DNA of 64,000 nucleotides from an uncultured Bacteroidales bacterium (lineage in GTDB: Bacteria; Bacteroidota; Bacteroidia; Bacteroidales; Muribaculaceae): contig CADCFN010000007.1 of NCBI GenBank assembly GCA_902800715.1, positions 1 to 64,000 on the forward strand. Direction: 5' to 3'. The notes beneath the pieces are model-generated. The model did not search any database, was not told where the DNA came from, and saw nothing but the letters and a program-made list of their open reading frames with translations. The position numbers were made by a program, and so were the translations under genes. Positions 22,183 through 54,485 of this stretch are shown in pieces (the first letter of the stretch is position 1; each line of letters opens with the position of its first letter).

Positions 22183-23232
22183 ATGAAAAAAGAGACCTAC
22201 AAAGCACAACAGCCCTTTGCAGGAGAGAAAAAGCCCTCCATGCTGCGCCGTTGTGTGGGTCATGACTATGCAAGCCGACAGATGTACATGATCACGATGG
22301 TCACCGAAGGACGGCGCCCGTTATTTGGACAAGTGGTGGGCAGGAGCGATGCGACGTCAGGCAGTGGCAATCAGCCACACATCGATTTGTCAGCACTTGG
22401 CCAACGCGTCAGCGACGAGTGGTGGGCCACCTCTCAGCACCACCCCGAGGTGAGGGTCCTCGCCTTGCAGATGATGCCCGACCACCTTCACGGCATCCTT
22501 TTCGTCACCCAACAGATGGAAAAACCCCTGGGCATGCTCCTGCGCGGCTTCAAGCAGAGCTGCAACCGCCACTACCGCGAGCTGGTGCTCGGCATCGCCC
22601 CCGTCCCGTCTGTTGCGTTGACAACGCAGCAAACAAAACACAAACAGGATCGCCGCAACGAGGACCGCTCCCACGGCATGCTGTTTGCCCGCGGCTATAA
22701 CGACAAACTGCTGCTGCGTGAAGGCCAACTGGAAACCTGGATTCATTACCTCAACGACAATCCCCGCCGCTTGTTGATGAAACGCGAGCATCCCGACCTG
22801 TTCCGTGTCCAGCGCAACGTCGAGGCCGCCGGAATGACCTTCTCGGCCATCGGCAACCGCTTCCTGCTCGACCGCCCCGTGCGCCTGCAAGTGCAATGCT
22901 CACGCCGCCTGAGTGAAGCCGAAATCCAGGAGCAGGTCGCACACTTCCTGACAGAGGCCCGACAAGGATCCGTTCTCGTGTCGCCCGCCATATCGCCTGG
23001 CGAGAAAGCCGTCATGCGGGCCGCATTCAACGAGGGTCTCCCGCTCATCTACCTACAGGAGAACGGTTTCACCGACCTGGCAAAGCCCGGCGGCACAAGA
23101 ATGGAAGCCTGTGCCCGCGGCCAACCGCTCATCCTCGCCCCATGGGAACACCACAACGAGCAACTCACCATCAGCCGCAGCCAATGCCTAAAACACAACG
23201 ACATCGCAAGCCTGCTAACGGCTATTCCTTGA
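22183..23232 (+). CDS. REP-associated HUH (Y1) transposase with C-terminal SLOG/DprA-like domain
   Basis: 349 aa. The N-terminal Y1 single-strand transposase domain (about 30-200) has MYMITMVTEGRRPLFG and the metal-binding MMPDHLHGILF (H101, H103). It also has the RAYT-type FARGYNDKLLL and WIHYLNDNPRR, with Y172 and Y189 as candidates for the nucleophile. Residues about 240-345 are an extra domain. Its SPGEKAVMRAAFNEGLPLIYL, KPGG and ACARGQPLILAPW resemble the Rossmann-like SLOG/DprA fold, a comparison by eye. Such proteins nick and move REP palindromes and are usually single-copy and domesticated. The gene carries an internal copy of its own flanking palindrome. Confidence 0.82.
   Translation: MKKETYKAQQPFAGEKKPSMLRRCVGHDYASRQMYMITMVTEGRRPLFGQVVGRSDATSGSGNQPHIDLSALGQRVSDEWWATSQHHPEVRVLALQMMPDHLHGILFVTQQMEKPLGMLLRGFKQSCNRHYRELVLGIAPVPSVALTTQQTKHKQDRRNEDRSHGMLFARGYNDKLLLREGQLETWIHYLNDNPRRLLMKREHPDLFRVQRNVEAAGMTFSAIGNRFLLDRPVRLQVQCSRRLSEAEIQEQVAHFLTEARQGSVLVSPAISPGEKAVMRAAFNEGLPLIYLQENGFTDLAKPGGTRMEACARGQPLILAPWEHHNEQLTISRSQCLKHNDIASLLTAIP
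22611..22631. repeat. Second copy of the REP-like palindrome, inside the transposase gene
   Basis: TGTTGCGTTG, A, CAACGCAGCA: the same 21-nt core as at 22126-22146 with two changes. It encodes part of a linker (SVALTTQQ) between the HUH motif and the tyrosine region. Confidence 0.75.
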
Positions 23233-23257: not shown

Positions 23258-23290
23258 ATGCAGTCTTTTCGTCAAATATGGCATCATAAC
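23258..23290 (+). promoter_or_regulatory. Motif A: putative ECF promoter of the sigma-barrel gene
   Basis: ATGCAGTC (23258-23265), 14 nt, GGCATCATAAC (23280-23290), ending 21 nt before the ATG at 23312. The same two blocks with the same spacing recur at 25001-25033 and 26565-26597. The conserved blocks with an unconserved fixed-length spacer look like -35/-10 elements (17 nt between GCAGTC and ATC). An ATG within the first block is in frame with the gene, but the variable spacer argues against translation. Confidence 0.6.
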
Positions 23291-23311: not shown

Positions 23312-24982
23312 ATGGACATGGAGCGTGTCATCGGGGCAGCTCTGGTTGGTGACCAACAGGCTATCGCCAAGCTCTATAATGCGTATTCCCACAAGGTGTT
23401 GGGGATATGCTATAATATTGTGGGCAACCGTGCAGTAGCCGAGGAACTGGCCCATGATGCCTTTGTGCTGGCCTTCTCCAAACTGGATCACTTGCACAAC
23501 CCTAACCGTTTTGACGCTTGGTTGTCAAGCATTGCGGCCAACGTGGCATTGCGCTACAAGCAGCGCCATCATGTGCTGGCCACTGTTCCTGTAGATGACA
23601 TGCCAGATGAGACTTGGATTGAAGATGAGCCCTCGGACATGCCGACGATGGACGAAATCATAGCTGCCGTGAACGCCCTGCCCAACGGTTACGGAAAGGT
23701 ATTCAAGATGGCGGTCATGCAGGATATGTCGCATAAGGAGATCGGCGAAATCCTGGGTATTGCCGCCCACTCCTCATCATCACAACTGGCACGCGCCAAA
23801 AAGATGTTGCAGCAATCGTTGGCCAAGTATTGGGCAATCGTCCTGCTTGCGCTGCTCACACCCCTGGCTTTGCTACTCCTGCGCCAACCCAAGACCATCG
23901 ACGAGCAACAGCCAAGGACGGCTGAGACGAACGAGCCCACAGTCACCGATGACAATCCACAAGTGACCAAGCCAGACAAACAGCAACGCAAAGAAAGTCG
24001 CAACATGGCCATTACTGTCCCCGAGAGATATGAGCAGCCAAATGTGAGCATCGCAGACTCAGTTCGGCATGAGGAGACCACAAGAGAGGCTATTGACACA
24101 ACAAAGGTTCCTGCAGAAAACATGCTGCCTCACCTGAAACTGAATGGCGACATCCACTTTGCAAACGTCAGTCATGGCCCCACTATCCAGCCAAAGAAAG
24201 ACAGCTTCAAGCGCTGGTCGGCTGATTTGGCTTATACTGGTCAACCCTCACCAGAGGCAGATCGGATGGTGCCTCACAACTTCATTGTTCCTGATTATAT
24301 TGCGCCATCAGTTCCTGGCGAACCTGATCCAACAATGTCGATTGATAACTGGAGCGATTATATCGCTTATCTTGAGGTAAAGAGTGACATCACGAGTGGA
24401 CTGTCTGAAGATGATCGCATCATGCGACAGATTGCCAAGAGCAACGAGCCGCTCAACAATGGCCAAATCGTGCGCAAGACTCACCACAGCCTGCCACTGA
24501 CCTATTTGTTGTCGTTGAGGTATCAAGCCAACAAGAGATTCGGCTTGGAGAGCGGCCTCCAGTACACAAGACTCAACTCGTTGTTCCAAACGGGTGAGGG
24601 GATCAACCGCATCGATGAGAAACAGCGCATTGATTATCTGGGTGTGCCGTTCAAGGTCTCTTATCGCATTTGGAGCGGCAAGCATGTGGGCATCTATACC
24701 TCGGCGAGCGTGACGTTGGAGATTCCAGTCAAATCAACAGTCAAGACAGATTATATCTTGAACAACCAGCCACAACTGCGCGACAGCCGTCATCTGGATG
24801 TGCCGTTGCAGTGGTCAACAGGCATTGGCATCGGTGTTCAGTACAATATCACGCCCACCATCGGCATCTTTGCAGAGCCTGGCGTGCAGTACTATATCCC
24901 TGACGGCAGCGGCTTTGAAACCTACCGCACACAGCATCCGTTCACCATCACCATTCCCGCCGGCTTGCGATTCACGTGGTAG
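23312..24982 (+). CDS. ECF sigma factor fused through a membrane helix to an outer-membrane beta-barrel
   Basis: 556 aa from ATG 23312, which I prefer to the upstream ATG 23258 that lies in motif A. Sigma region 2 spans about 7-86 (ELAHDAFVLAFSKLDH, RFDAWLSSIAANVALRY). Region 4 spans about 113-168 with helix-turn-helix MSHKEIGEILGIAAHSSSSQ. A hydrophobic helix at 174-190 follows immediately. Then comes a charged, Pro/Gln-rich linker (191-300) and an OMP_b-brl type barrel with strands to the end, closing with FTITIPAGLRFTW. The terminal aromatic residue fits a BAM signal. Topology would be sigma in the cytoplasm, helix in the inner membrane and barrel in the outer membrane. Dual-membrane anti-sigma factors (Dma) exist in Bacteroides as I recall, but here the sigma itself occupies the cytoplasmic end. 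Confidence 0.85.
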   Translation: MDMERVIGAALVGDQQAIAKLYNAYSHKVLGICYNIVGNRAVAEELAHDAFVLAFSKLDHLHNPNRFDAWLSSIAANVALRYKQRHHVLATVPVDDMPDETWIEDEPSDMPTMDEIIAAVNALPNGYGKVFKMAVMQDMSHKEIGEILGIAAHSSSSQLARAKKMLQQSLAKYWAIVLLALLTPLALLLLRQPKTIDEQQPRTAETNEPTVTDDNPQVTKPDKQQRKESRNMAITVPERYEQPNVSIADSVRHEETTREAIDTTKVPAENMLPHLKLNGDIHFANVSHGPTIQPKKDSFKRWSADLAYTGQPSPEADRMVPHNFIVPDYIAPSVPGEPDPTMSIDNWSDYIAYLEVKSDITSGLSEDDRIMRQIAKSNEPLNNGQIVRKTHHSLPLTYLLSLRYQANKRFGLESGLQYTRLNSLFQTGEGINRIDEKQRIDYLGVPFKVSYRIWSGKHVGIYTSASVTLEIPVKSTVKTDYILNNQPQLRDSRHLDVPLQWSTGIGIGVQYNITPTIGIFAEPGVQYYIPDGSGFETYRTQHPFTITIPAGLRFTW

Positions 24983-25000: not shown

Positions 25001-25033
25001 ATGCAGTCATTATTCGGTTTGTGGTATCATAAC
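25001..25033 (+). promoter_or_regulatory. Motif B: putative ECF promoter of the BNR-repeat gene
   Basis: ATGCAGTC (25001-25008), 14 nt, GGTATCATAAC (25023-25033), ending 24 nt before the ATG at 25058. It differs from motif A by one base within the conserved blocks. Confidence 0.6.
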
Positions 25034-25057: not shown

Positions 25058-26263
25058 ATGAAGATTTGGATTCTTGCTTTAGCAATGCTAGCAGCCTATT
25101 CCACTGCAATAGCGCAAAATCAACTGTTTCACTCTCTCGGATTAGGTTTTGAAGGTGGTGAACGGCAGGGTAGCTGCTCACATCCTCGGATGCACATCGA
25201 GGGAGACAGGCTTTACATCTGCACCTGCCAGGGGCTTTACACCAAAGACTTGACAGCAGAAAATTGCGCATGGCAATTAGTCGGCTTCGAGGGCATTCCG
25301 CTACAGGACTACGCCCGACGTGGCAACGACATTCTTGTCTTGCGCTACAATGAGGGCGGCAGTTTCCTGCTCCTCTCGCACGATGGCGGGCAGACATACG
25401 AAGACGTAACGCCCGAAATCTTCCGAGGGAAGAATCACGGGAGACTACCCAGCCTCGTCCAACACCCTACAGACCCTAACACGCTATTGGTATCTTCTAC
25501 GTATTGGGGCTTGTTACTCTCTACGGACTTTGGACAGACTTGGGAGTGCCTGACGGAATCCGTTTATGGAAACCCAGCCGCATCTTTCATCGGTTTTCAT
25601 CCTTCACGTCCAAACATCGTCTACAATAGTGGAGAAGGAATGGTCTACGAAGGACATATCAAAATCAGTTACGACAGCGGTCAGACGTGGAACGACCACG
25701 GCAATTCGCTCGGCTTCCCCGGTGACAACTGCGTACACCAGCCGACATTCCATCCCACCAATCCCGACCGTTGGCTGGCTGGCGGCGAAGGATGCGTATT
25801 CCTCTCAGATGACAACGGCCAGACATGGAGTTGCCAGAATTATTGGGGCGATGAATCCCGCACGGCCTACTGGTACTTCTCTGCATTTGACAACGAACAT
25901 CCCGACACAGTGTATATGGCGGGATGTCTGGGGCGAAACGGCCAGGAGGGAGCTTGCATTAAACTGATGTGCTCCACTGACGGCGGACGCTCGTGGCATC
26001 CCTCGCACGTAATGACATTTGAGAAGGACTTTGAGCGGGTAAACGACCTGCAACAATATGGCGATCGCCTTCTCATTTACTCCGAATCGGATGTCTATGA
26101 GATTTCTAAAGATGATCTTGTTAGACAGAGTACTACATCAATTCAATCAATAAGGGCGGACAAATCACAAGATGGAATTATCTATGATTTACAAGGCCGT
26201 CGTGTGAATCAGACGAGCAAGGGCATATTTATAAAGAATGGCAAAAAATACTACATCAAATGA
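25058..26263 (+). CDS. Secreted BNR/Asp-box beta-propeller protein
   Basis: 401 aa with a signal peptide (1-19, cut after AIA-Q). Five Asp boxes of the S-x-D-x-G-x-T-W type lie at 107-114, 155-162, 204-211, 250-257 and 306-313, as in sialidases and sortilin-like propellers. I do not see the sialidase arginine triad or FRIP motif, so enzymatic activity is not claimed. The C-terminal GIIYDLQGRRVNQTSKGIFIKNG block resembles the short sorting-type tails of Prevotella and Muribaculaceae secreted proteins. It follows the sigma-barrel gene by 75 nt and has its own copy of the shared motif, so it is a likely target of that sigma. Confidence 0.8.
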   Translation: MKIWILALAMLAAYSTAIAQNQLFHSLGLGFEGGERQGSCSHPRMHIEGDRLYICTCQGLYTKDLTAENCAWQLVGFEGIPLQDYARRGNDILVLRYNEGGSFLLLSHDGGQTYEDVTPEIFRGKNHGRLPSLVQHPTDPNTLLVSSTYWGLLLSTDFGQTWECLTESVYGNPAASFIGFHPSRPNIVYNSGEGMVYEGHIKISYDSGQTWNDHGNSLGFPGDNCVHQPTFHPTNPDRWLAGGEGCVFLSDDNGQTWSCQNYWGDESRTAYWYFSAFDNEHPDTVYMAGCLGRNGQEGACIKLMCSTDGGRSWHPSHVMTFEKDFERVNDLQQYGDRLLIYSESDVYEISKDDLVRQSTTSIQSIRADKSQDGIIYDLQGRRVNQTSKGIFIKNGKKYYIK

Positions 26264-26564: not shown

Positions 26565-26597
26565 ATGCAGTCCTTGATGGATTGGAAGCATCTACAC
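26565..26597 (+). promoter_or_regulatory. Motif C: putative ECF promoter of the radical SAM operon
   Basis: ATGCAGTC (26565-26572), 14 nt, AGCATCTACAC (26587-26597), ending 31 nt before the ATG at 26629. The first block is identical to motifs A and B. The second is more diverged. Confidence 0.5.
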
Positions 26598-26628: not shown

Positions 26629-27681
26629 ATGTACAAACTGACTGACTACCTCTACAACGGGTTATTGTATCTCAACAATATGTCCCGACCACAGCACAAG
26701 CGGTTAAGCCAACTGATGCTCTATGCCACAACAGTTTGCCAGTCACATTGCAAGCACTGCAACATCTGGCAGAAAAAACGGGAACACCTGTCGCTCGATG
26801 ACATAAGGCGCGTCATGCAGAGCCGTTGCATCACGAGCAGGACGACCATCGGGCTCGAAGGAGGCGAATTCATCCTGCATCCGCAAGTCAATGAGATATT
26901 GGCATGGTTTCATCTGCACCACCCTAATTACACGCTGCTGACTAATGGCCTCGCTCCTCAACGGGTTATCGATGCTGTTAGGCACTACCGTCCACACCAC
27001 CTTTATGTCTCACTCGATGGGGACAAGGAAACCTACAAGAGGATGCGCGGCTGCGATGGCTACGACAAGGTGATTGAGGTCGTTGAGACATTAAAGGACG
27101 AAGTGCCGCTGTCGCTCATGTTCTGCCTGTCGCCGTGGAACTCGTTCAAGGACATGGAGCATGTCATCAATGTGGCCTTGCATTACGGCATTGACGTGCG
27201 CATCGGCATATATGGCACGATGGCGTTCTTCGACACCACGAGCGAGTTGCTCAAGATAAGCGACTACATGAACCAAATACCGGACAATATCCACAAAACC
27301 CAGGAGAATTATGATTTTGTGGCGCTCTATGACCAGTGGCGACGTGGCACTTTGCAGCTACGATGCCAGAGCATCATGAGCAGCCTGGTCATACACAGCA
27401 ACGGGGACGTGCCGCTGTGTCAGAATCTTAACGTCAAGTTGGGCAACATCCACAATCAGTCGCTGGATGATATTTTCAACGGCAATCAGGCCTGTGAAAC
27501 CCAATGCCGGTATTCCACGCAGTGCAACGGATGCTGGATTAACTTCCATCGCAAATATGACATCATCCTAATGCGCAACCTCGAGCGACTTTTGCCCAAA
27601 CGGCTCATTGAACGATTTTATGGCCCGTATCAATGGACTGACGACACAAAAATGACCTATCATAAACTGTTGAAATCATGA
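26629..27681 (+). CDS. Radical SAM protein with SPASM-like C-terminus
   Basis: 350 aa. The 4Fe-4S/SAM motif is CQSHCKHC (C37, C41, C44). It is followed by GLEGGEFILHPQ, a GGEP-like block, and LYVSLDGDKETYKRMRG. The C-terminal third has a Cys-rich stretch (PLCQNLNVKLGN, CETQCRYSTQCNGC) like SPASM or twitch domains that bind extra clusters. Substrate unknown: such enzymes modify peptides, sugars or cofactors. It overlaps the next gene by 4 nt (ATGA), so the two are translationally coupled. The putative sigma motif C lies upstream. Confidence 0.85.
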   Translation: MYKLTDYLYNGLLYLNNMSRPQHKRLSQLMLYATTVCQSHCKHCNIWQKKREHLSLDDIRRVMQSRCITSRTTIGLEGGEFILHPQVNEILAWFHLHHPNYTLLTNGLAPQRVIDAVRHYRPHHLYVSLDGDKETYKRMRGCDGYDKVIEVVETLKDEVPLSLMFCLSPWNSFKDMEHVINVALHYGIDVRIGIYGTMAFFDTTSELLKISDYMNQIPDNIHKTQENYDFVALYDQWRRGTLQLRCQSIMSSLVIHSNGDVPLCQNLNVKLGNIHNQSLDDIFNGNQACETQCRYSTQCNGCWINFHRKYDIILMRNLERLLPKRLIERFYGPYQWTDDTKMTYHKLLKS

Positions 27682-28637
27682 TACAACAACTCATCAACCG
27701 CTATAAGCGAATGCGCACCGAGCGCTATCTCAACGAGACCTACCGTTGTCAATACGCCTTCGTCGGTATGGGTCAACACAGCTTGACCAACCTTTATCCT
27801 GTGCTTCACTACCTGCAAGTGCCGTTGAAATACATCTGCGTGACCAGTGAACGCAAGGCACGGCTCATCGAACGCAAATTTAAAGGGATAAAAGCCACGA
27901 CCAGGCTTGATGACGTCCTTAATGATGAAGACGTGAAAAGTGTGCTGGTTGCCGCATCGCCCGGTGCTCATTTCTCTATTGCCTCCCGTGTTTTGCAGAG
28001 TGGCAAGTCACTGTTTATCGAGAAACCGCCTTGCCAATCAGTCGCACAACTCAAGGCACTCACCGCCATGCAGCAGGCCAGCGGATCTCGGATAGCGATA
28101 GTGGGGTTGCAGCAGCGTTATGCGCCAGCTGTCCAGATACTCAAGCACCGATTAAAGGGTGAACGACTACTCAACTATGACCTGCACTATCTCACGGGGG
28201 CTTATCCCGAGGGCGATGCCCTACTCGACTTGTACATCCACCCGATAGACCTGGCCACATGGCTGTTTGGAAAGGCCGAAATCGTTTCCTATTTAGAGAT
28301 TGATGAACATTCCTATATCCTGATGCTTCGGCACCAACACATTGTCGGCACGATAGAGTTGTCCACCTGCCACTGCTGGCAAGACGCGCGACAGTCACTC
28401 ACTGTCCACGCAGGCGTTCCCATCGAGAAACTTCTTACTTGCCGCCAATCGGTTGAATACCTGTACCGTCACAACAGTTTCTCCCCTACCATTGCCAACA
28501 ATTCCATCTACACCCAAGGCTTTTTTCAAGAGGTTTCCACCTTTGTCAACGCCGTTGAGGGAAAGAGGGCGAATGTCCTTACCGACCTTCAGTCCGTTGA
28601 ACCGACACTAAAACTGATTGACAAGATTATGGGATAA
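27678..28637 (+). CDS. Gfo/Idh/MocA family oxidoreductase
   Basis: 319 aa. The Rossmann start YAFVGMGQHSLTNLYP (about 26-41) and the family signature LFIEKPP (112-118) identify an NAD(P)-dependent sugar or sugar-like oxidoreductase. The C-terminal domain contains DLYIHPIDLATWLFG, whose His is the usual catalytic region. Overlap with the radical SAM gene implies a shared pathway, perhaps modification of a sugar or small secreted product, but nothing in the sequence names the substrate. Confidence 0.82.
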   Translation: MIQQLINRYKRMRTERYLNETYRCQYAFVGMGQHSLTNLYPVLHYLQVPLKYICVTSERKARLIERKFKGIKATTRLDDVLNDEDVKSVLVAASPGAHFSIASRVLQSGKSLFIEKPPCQSVAQLKALTAMQQASGSRIAIVGLQQRYAPAVQILKHRLKGERLLNYDLHYLTGAYPEGDALLDLYIHPIDLATWLFGKAEIVSYLEIDEHSYILMLRHQHIVGTIELSTCHCWQDARQSLTVHAGVPIEKLLTCRQSVEYLYRHNSFSPTIANNSIYTQGFFQEVSTFVNAVEGKRANVLTDLQSVEPTLKLIDKIMG

Positions 28638-53853: not shown

Positions 53854-53894
53854 CTTACTGCTCTGTGAATTGATGCTCCTGTCGGCAAACGGGC

Positions 53895-54485
53895 TTACAG
53901 TGTCAGCACGATGTTGTGCTCCTCGGCCATGCGGCGCATGTTCAGGATGGCATAGCGCATACGGCCCAGGGCGGTGTTGATGCTCACGCCCGTGCTGTCG
54001 GCTATCTCCTTAAAGCTCATGTTCTTGTAGTAACGCATCACGAGAACCTCACGCTGGTTGTCGGGCAACGCCTTCACCAGGCGGCGCACATCGTCATGAA
54101 TCTGAGAAACCACAATGTTGTCTTCGGTCGTGCGTTCCGACAATTCCTTGCGGTTGAGGATGTTGACCTCTTCATCATCGGTCGATTGCAGGTTTTCAGC
54201 CTTGGTCTGCCTGAAGTAGTCGATGACAAGGTTATGGGCTATGCGCGTAATCCATGCCGAGAAGTGTCCGTTCTCGACATAGCGGCCCTGCTTGATGGTT
54301 GTGATGACTTTGACGAAAGTATCTTGGAAAATGTCGTCGGCATGCTCAGCGTTTTTCACCGAGTGGTATATATACATGTAAACGCGGTCCTTGTGACGCT
54401 CCAGGAGCTCATCAAAGGCCTCATTCTTGCCATCGACATACAGCGATATCAGTTGCTCATCGCTCTTGTCCTTGTATATCTTCAT
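53895..54485 (-). CDS. ECF-type RNA polymerase sigma factor
   Basis: 196 aa. Sigma region 2 includes the -10 binding DIFQDTFVKVITTIKQGRY and FSAWITRIAHNLVIDYFRQ. Region 4 has LPDNQREVLVMRYYKNMSFKEIADSTGVSINTALGRMRYA. The plain, separate sigma contrasts with the sigma-barrel fusion at 23312. No anti-sigma gene is adjacent. This type is conserved in Bacteroidales and often annotated RpoE-like, but the inducing signal is unknown. It is preceded by a good promoter and a CGAAATC/GATTTCG hairpin. Confidence 0.93.
   Translation of the reverse strand: MKIYKDKSDEQLISLYVDGKNEAFDELLERHKDRVYMYIYHSVKNAEHADDIFQDTFVKVITTIKQGRYVENGHFSAWITRIAHNLVIDYFRQTKAENLQSTDDEEVNILNRKELSERTTEDNIVVSQIHDDVRRLVKALPDNQREVLVMRYYKNMSFKEIADSTGVSINTALGRMRYAILNMRRMAEEHNIVLTL

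Follow-up and report, generated by a model that had tools for sequence, protein, structure and literature searches.

What kind of regulator carries a sigma factor and an outer-membrane barrel in one polypeptide, and how might such a sigma factor be restrained and released? The question is raised by a single open frame of 556 codons found by open reading frame analysis on the plus strand, at 23312-24982 of the 64-kb stretch of Bacteroidales DNA analysed here (the window). Its product resolves as follows:

23312..24982, + strand: single-chain protein of 556 residues, running sigma, membrane helix, tether, barrel (frame, Pfam, alignment, AlphaFold2 model)
23312..23809, + strand: ECF sigma domain, residues 1-166, with region 2 at 21-86 and region 4 at 114-166 (Pfam, Foldseek)
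23828..23881, + strand: membrane helix with an inner proline, residues 173-190, directly 3' of the sigma domain (sequence, relatives, model)
23882..24205, + strand: disordered polar tether, residues 191-298 (pLDDT below 50 at 191-297, dN/dS, composition)
24212..24979, + strand: predicted outer-membrane barrel domain, residues 301-556, with C-terminal W (Pfam, AlphaFold2, Foldseek)

In the sigma half, Pfam Sigma70_r2 (residues 21-86, 1.6e-10) and Sigma70_r4_2 (residues 114-166, 1.5e-10) both score above their cut-offs, and TIGR02937 is matched with 61.7 bits against a cut-off of 42.9; with regions 2 and 4 as its sigma part, the protein belongs among the ECF sigma factors (sigma70-ECF). At the other end, OMP_b-brl aligns with residues 397-522 (1.3e-5) at 25.8 bits, below its cut-off of 28.7. 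AlphaFold2 was run twice with concordant results, the second time on a 40-row alignment with a mean pLDDT of 73.5. In that model sigma region 2 reaches a pLDDT of about 92, one weaker helix at 152-189 (pLDDT 57-77) links region 4 to the membrane segment, residues 191-297 are disordered and lack structure, and strands spread over residues 302-555 with pLDDT mostly near 90. Foldseek matches one end of the model to the ECF sigmas SigW and E. coli sigma-E and the other end, separately, to OmpA and further barrels; because each match spans one end only, normalising the TM-score to the full query yields low values. The C-terminal W is shared by 34 of the 40 alignment rows, some of which were trimmed at the match end, and membrane-helix and barrel matches are also present in the relatives' loci examined. 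As modelled, the chain would run from the cytosol to the outer membrane. The preliminary description had read this same succession of sigma regions 2 and 4, helix, linker and barrel with an aromatic end from the frame, and had proposed structure prediction as a check on a barrel in residues 300-556; both are borne out. Its linker of more than 100 residues also stands in length (108 residues), with a Pro/Gln richness that is only mild, at 19/108 (18%) compared with 12% for the full chain.

The most trivial answer would be that assembly or sequencing error joined two genes, and we give it almost no credence. The identical single-frame layout recurs across many genomes and contigs, and nothing supports an error in the window copy. 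Searching 150 genomes, the window's own included, at E 1e-30 returned matches in 40 (again with its own). In the genus, these comprise 14 full-length orthologs besides the window's, with 81-91% identity, and 22 full-length divergent loci with 30-37% identity; in the match table for the genus, neither group contains internal stops. Single-frame fusions are also found in families besides the window's in an order-wide sample of 393 genomes (for example G447, G417, G478, G311, and G455), together with broken ones in G392 and G148. In the family of G417 (f59), 65/251 genomes and 16/30 genera have matches at E 1e-55; among the matches listed, most are full length, and those in G630 and G634 contain an internal stop. 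No fusion outside Bacteroidales was found in a 296-genome phylum sample at E 1e-60, where the two matches are the window's own genome and one Bacteroidales genome. The fusion thus recurs in related genomes, as a search for it had been expected to reveal, and these recurrent full-length frames, combined with low dN/dS, refute a joining error in the window copy. The 18 loci that carry names come from metagenome-assembled genomes (MAGs) labelled Bacteroidales, Prevotellaceae, or Muribaculaceae, some from roe-deer abomasum; the RUG prefix of many fusion-bearing MAGs presumably denotes rumen origin.

A second deflating answer is that the fusion is degenerate, with a sigma relic attached to a working barrel or the reverse, and broken copies lend it some substance. 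The 19 close-type copies in the genus include three that are disrupted, in G021 (L025) within or shortly past the membrane helix, between residues 177 and 205, in G024 (L026) near residue 370, and in G043 (L020) before residue 38, where the match starts only at residue 38; a fourth, in G059 (L125), is truncated to about its first 80 residues. A break between codons 165 and 200 is what the preliminary description had named as a sign of two joined genes; the window copy is intact there, and the break seen in that region belongs to G021, a different genome. Either the gene is dispensable in these genomes or the breaks are errors in those MAGs. Against degeneration, dN/dS is low on both halves: among 15 close orthologs, with relatedness ignored, the median is 0.081 for the sigma, 0.104 for the helix, and 0.064 for the barrel, compared with 0.262 for the tether (residues 193-300) and 0.179 for residues 301-384. 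Moreover, invariant alignment positions occur in the sigma half and the barrel half alike, and fusions in other families retain the promoter motif described below. We therefore regard degeneration as very improbable.

A predicted membrane helix, a long disordered tether, and a C-terminal barrel are features of the Dma family of dual-membrane anti-sigma factors, and as described in the literature Dma1/Das1, Dma2/Das2, and EcfO/Reo share them with the fusion. These known systems consist of two proteins and have a cytosolic anti-sigma domain, whereas the fusion is one chain without such a domain. PMC13088901 gives an anti-sigma domain at the cytosolic N-terminus as the defining Dma feature, and we examined the fused frames for it. 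In 75/75 fused frames, taken from relatives' loci with many near-copies and with the window's own frame outside the set, the membrane window begins 0-6 residues past the sigma match. In 19 separate Dma-type proteins, by comparison, 40-69 residues lie between the first in-frame Met and the membrane segment. A gap of 0-6 residues leaves no space for an N-terminal cytosolic anti-sigma domain ahead of the membrane segment, so all 75 fused frames lack the hallmark part of an anti-sigma factor. The fusion is thus a variant of the Dma/Das kind and not a plain Dma protein.

The genome that carries the fusion offers a direct comparison, since it also encodes a separate pair related to the two halves, with a sigma match at C7:115932-116438 (27% identity) and a barrel match at C7:117175-117651 (36%). 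This pair (L009 2918-4661) consists of a 180-residue sigma and a 402-residue protein (L009 3453-4661) that has a short N-terminus, membrane segment, linker, and barrel, with 49 residues from its first Met to the membrane segment and an NCBIfam anti-sigma match below cut-off (6.6e-6, 26.3 bits of 100). Near the fusion itself, a check of seven neighbouring window genes turned up no separate sigma, as would be seen for a single-chain protein of the Dma3 type.

Another reading is dual translation, by which a full chain would be made together with a second product starting at a Met closely ahead of the helix (residue 165). This second product would be a barrel preceded by a signal peptide, leaving the sigma function nearly separate. 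A Met does occur in the stretch ahead of the hydrophobic segment in 37/40 aligned proteins. However, its position is variable, it is absent in 3/40, and it falls in a region-4 helix, in which Met and Leu often occur. Both the second product and this near separation of functions seem improbable to us.

Sequence comparison and trees identify separate sigma and barrel pairs akin to both fusion halves, and the fused proteins form a clade of their own apart from them. The trees were built from 40 fused representatives, 19 separate barrels, and 26 separate sigmas, excluding fragments of broken fusions. In the unrooted barrel tree, fused barrels stand together on one side of a branch with 99/99 support; in the unrooted sigma tree, fused sigmas stand together with 100/99 support, except for one sigma whose branch is 5.94 changes per site long. 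Both are consistent with a single ancient fusion and do not prove it, since the trees are unrooted. Repeated independent fusions are supported by neither tree. The fused sigmas resemble those whose genes adjoin Dma-type genes, which suggests possible kinship with the ECF21 group.

Within the fused clade, sensor and sigma have been exchanged. In 60-column blocks, L109 has 81-92% identity to L037 over the sigma and 9-40% over the last five blocks, and against L033 the figures are 37-49% for the sigma and 45-80% for these five blocks. The same conflict is mirrored between the sigma and barrel trees. Block identities and tree conflict together indicate that sensor and sigma recombined at a breakpoint within the helix or tether. 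Such module swapping suggests natural re-wiring and might be of use in building sensors for gut Bacteroidales.

The joining of sigma and barrel is not new as such. The preliminary description knew of no described protein of this layout, which PMC13088901 contradicts: it states that in Bacteroides thetaiotaomicron the N-terminal domain of Dma3 (bt_2778-2779) is itself the cognate sigma. The paper adds that very little else is known about Dma3, and that both genes of the two-gene locus are upregulated in two mutants. Like the fusion, Dma3 has a sigma at the N-terminus of a Dma-family protein, a likeness at the level of description, and a co-upregulated two-gene locus fits the arrangement of fusion and neighbour. 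The fusion is probably in the same class as Dma3. More distant parallels differ in their regulatory parts. IutY of Pseudomonas putida (ECF243) combines a sigma and a membrane regulator in one chain, from which Prc and RseP cleavage frees the sigma; in contrast to the fusion, it has a periplasmic anti-sigma domain and a separate outer-membrane receptor and no barrel of its own. In ECF48/52/53, such as SCO4117, a sigma is joined to membrane segments that carry extracytoplasmic parts; these proteins are actinobacterial, retain a zinc-finger anti-sigma domain, and lack an outer-membrane barrel. In a shallow literature search, which is no proof of absence, we found no description of the missing anti-sigma domain, a promoter code, cassettes, or module swapping. 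As far as was searched, then, the missing anti-sigma domain, the promoter motif and radical-SAM co-occurrence presented below, and the module swapping are new. Both the proposed tethering and the likening to Dma proteins, first drawn from this frame, hold as far as sequence can tell. That first account saw the fusion of sigma and sensor and overlooked the missing cytosolic domain, as well as the likely promoter and targets in the flanking DNA.

That flanking DNA contains a repeated motif:

23258..23290, + strand: predicted cognate promoter of the fusion gene, ATGCAGTC N13 TGGCATCATAAC (motif scans, relatives)
25001..25033, + strand: second copy of the promoter motif, 5' of the next gene (motif scan of window and genome)
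26565..26597, + strand: third copy, 5' of the radical-SAM gene, with 1 mismatch to a looser pattern (looser scan)

The pattern ATGCAGTC N13 TGGYATCATAAC has two sites in the 64 kb, before the fusion and the next gene, compared with 0.02 expected. Even with up to 3 mismatches, these two local sites are the only ones in the 3.3-Mb genome assembly (88.9% complete). With the looser pattern the genome has 7 sites versus 6 for a reversed control, and just the 3 local ones look real; a genome-wide regulon is rejected on these counts. A start at 23258, which would give a 574-residue version of the fusion protein, is possible, but the added 5' bases contain the promoter motif.

The position of the motif is conserved. 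Across 18 close-type loci (the window and L010-L026), it lies exactly 54 bases 5' of the matched start in 16, carrying no more than 1 mismatch. In L020, where the match starts at residue 38, the motif is 54 bases 5' of the ATG, and the disrupted L025 copy lacks it at -54. Across families, the blocks reduce to TGCAG[TC], followed after 15-20 bases by GTC, GAC, or ATC and, within 0-2 bases, two A/T. This relaxed pattern was tuned on 30 fusion loci (the window and L094-L122), where it is found upstream of 20/30 and downstream of 18/30 (about 0.5 and 0.4 expected) and is missing from 10/30 and 12/30, respectively. The downstream absences are the six MBOAT loci, in which little space separates the fusion from the next gene (9-19 bases in the 4 resolved), and L095, L097, L099, L101, L102, and L116. 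Out of sample, in 27 f59 loci obtained once the pattern was fixed, it is found upstream of 24/27 and downstream of 20/27, with 0.7 and 0.6 expected; three of 30 f59 loci (L135, L155, L157) had been dropped, with no fusion frame of at least 450 residues picked. The fusion loci are partly redundant, with near-copies (e.g., L130-L132) and some genomes that contribute two or three, so that P values on these counts are to be taken as descriptive.

This is the arrangement expected of an ECF sigma that controls itself and a gene beside it, which suggests that the fusion may regulate its own gene. The copies could also serve another related sigma. Before 23 separate sigma genes, the relaxed pattern occurs in 2, TGCAG[TC] in 8, and TGCAGTATT in 4, and some separate Das/Dma-type pairs carry a -35-like block related to the fusion's motif. 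Two other readings of the motif were considered. ATGCAGTC reads as an open frame 5' of the fusion and its neighbours, as for a short leader peptide (MQS[FL]xxxW); a promoter is preferred because fusions in other families keep just two short blocks upstream. A REP/RAYT element is disfavoured, the motif being confined to the fusion locus within the genome assembly.

The motif copies point to the following genes behind the fusion:

25058..26263, + strand: predicted target, BNR/sortilin-like repeat protein (Pfam)
26629..27681, + strand: predicted target, radical SAM/SPASM protein (Pfam, co-occurrence)
27678..28637, + strand: Gfo/Idh/MocA oxidoreductase, overlapping the radical-SAM stop (Pfam, locus comparison)

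The radical-SAM/SPASM gene is found at E 1e-30 in 18 genomes of the genus, and these are exactly the genomes with a close-type fusion, intact or disrupted, beyond a fragment. G059, which has only the fusion fragment, is without it, and no match at E 1e-30 was found in genus members carrying divergent fusions only. Fusion, radical-SAM, and oxidoreductase genes also cluster together at three loci in two other families (G447, G417, G478). In G138, of another family, the radical-SAM/oxidoreductase pair is present, and the 6 kb searched, which includes 365 bases preceding the pair, gave no fusion match.

Elsewhere the neighbour differs, with classes assigned by clustering and by eye (by eye for f59) and named by Pfam from representatives. 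In the 30 tuning loci, the first gene 3' of the fusion is a methyltransferase in 7, CotH-type in 6, MBOAT in 6, radical SAM (next to the fusion or one gene further on) in 4, acyltransferase-3 in 1, and other or unclear in 6. The 27 f59 loci have a lipoprotein-like gene of about 185 residues in 12 (L134, L136, L139, L142-L144, L146, L147, L150-L152, L154), a methyltransferase in 6, radical SAM in 3, and other or none in 6. Two members of the lipoprotein-like family returned no Pfam match. A similar gene precedes the radical-SAM gene in L094. The genes for O-acylation and methylation and those of CotH type suggest that the envelope or surface is modified; the cassettes are diverse, with no common chemistry proven, and the target role of these neighbours is a prediction from their position and motifs. 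According to PMC9308784, losing a related outer-membrane-spanning anti-sigma factor lengthens O-antigen.

How, then, would the outer membrane reach these promoters? With moderate confidence, we favour a one-protein device derived from a Das/Dma sigma/anti-sigma pair by fusion and shortening, similar to Dma3, in which the sigma is released by proteolysis. Its N-terminal ECF sigma would lie in the cytosol, anchored through the helix after region 4, with the disordered tether spanning the periplasm and the barrel in the outer membrane. Since there is no anti-sigma domain, the anchor is probably the restraint that keeps the sigma from its targets. A change in the barrel or the outer membrane, such as ligand binding, failed assembly, or envelope stress, would most likely expose the tether to a periplasmic protease, and an RseP/S2P-type protease would then cut the proline-containing helix and free the sigma. 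From TGCAGTC-type promoters, the freed sigma would transcribe the fusion gene along with the cassette beside it (in the window, the BNR protein, the radical-SAM/SPASM enzyme, and the oxidoreductase).

Release near residues 170-195 is plausible on three grounds: the proline pattern, the protease gene, and the IutY precedent. The membrane helix has an inner proline in 31/40 fused proteins versus 4/19 separate Dma-type proteins (relatedness ignored, fragments of broken fusions excluded). A Peptidase_M50 (S2P-type protease) gene is present in the window's own genome and also in 14/14 control genomes, S2P proteases being near universal. The main competitor dispenses with cleavage: the sigma would work while anchored, with the barrel signal changing its posture or clustering at the membrane. 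ToxR and CadC are the model for regulators that work while membrane-anchored. The single predicted helix from residue 152 to 189 that joins sigma and membrane segment, the tether's lack of an obvious conserved cleavage motif in the alignment, and motif copies that adjoin the fusion gene, as would suit a membrane-bound factor, all speak for it. However, RNA polymerase would need to bind a sigma held at the membrane, and both the proline pattern and the activation of IutY through proteolysis argue against it, so we consider anchored action unlikely.

One polypeptide both sensing the outer membrane and carrying the transcription factor would make for nearly the shortest conceivable pathway from surface to gene, and the fusion bears on how Dma-type regulators signal across two membranes. 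Because sensor, sigma, likely promoter, and likely targets lie within a few kilobases, the proposal is testable with one construct and one reporter. More broadly, we see about an even chance that these proteins represent an old and widespread group of one-component envelope regulators in Bacteroidales, namely, sigmas without an anti-sigma domain, restrained solely by a chain from cytosol to surface, whose barrels and sigma heads are shuffled by recombination, with every member governing a local, interchangeable cassette for surface modification by way of a readable promoter code common to the group.

Several minor observations accompany these results. L099 has three near-identical motif copies on one strand, at -52, +2594, and +6099 relative to where the fusion starts, which suggests that the local regulon of this genome is larger. 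In L009, ATGCAAGATT precedes the separate sigma gene and recurs after the Dma-type gene, perhaps as a second promoter code; we take the gene behind the second copy to be a serpin from its appearance. L127 (G454:C301) has a sigma match in a 429-residue frame that gave no barrel match at the threshold applied and is perhaps a different sigma fusion. The window itself contains a second sigma-like match at 53892-54458 on the minus strand, with one stop within the matched stretch. Finally, the gene upstream of the fusion (22183-23232) resembles REP-associated tyrosine transposases (NCBIfam 9.3e-11, 41.8 bits, below the cut-off of 80), and a gene of this type also adjoins the truncated G059 fusion (L125) on its upstream side.
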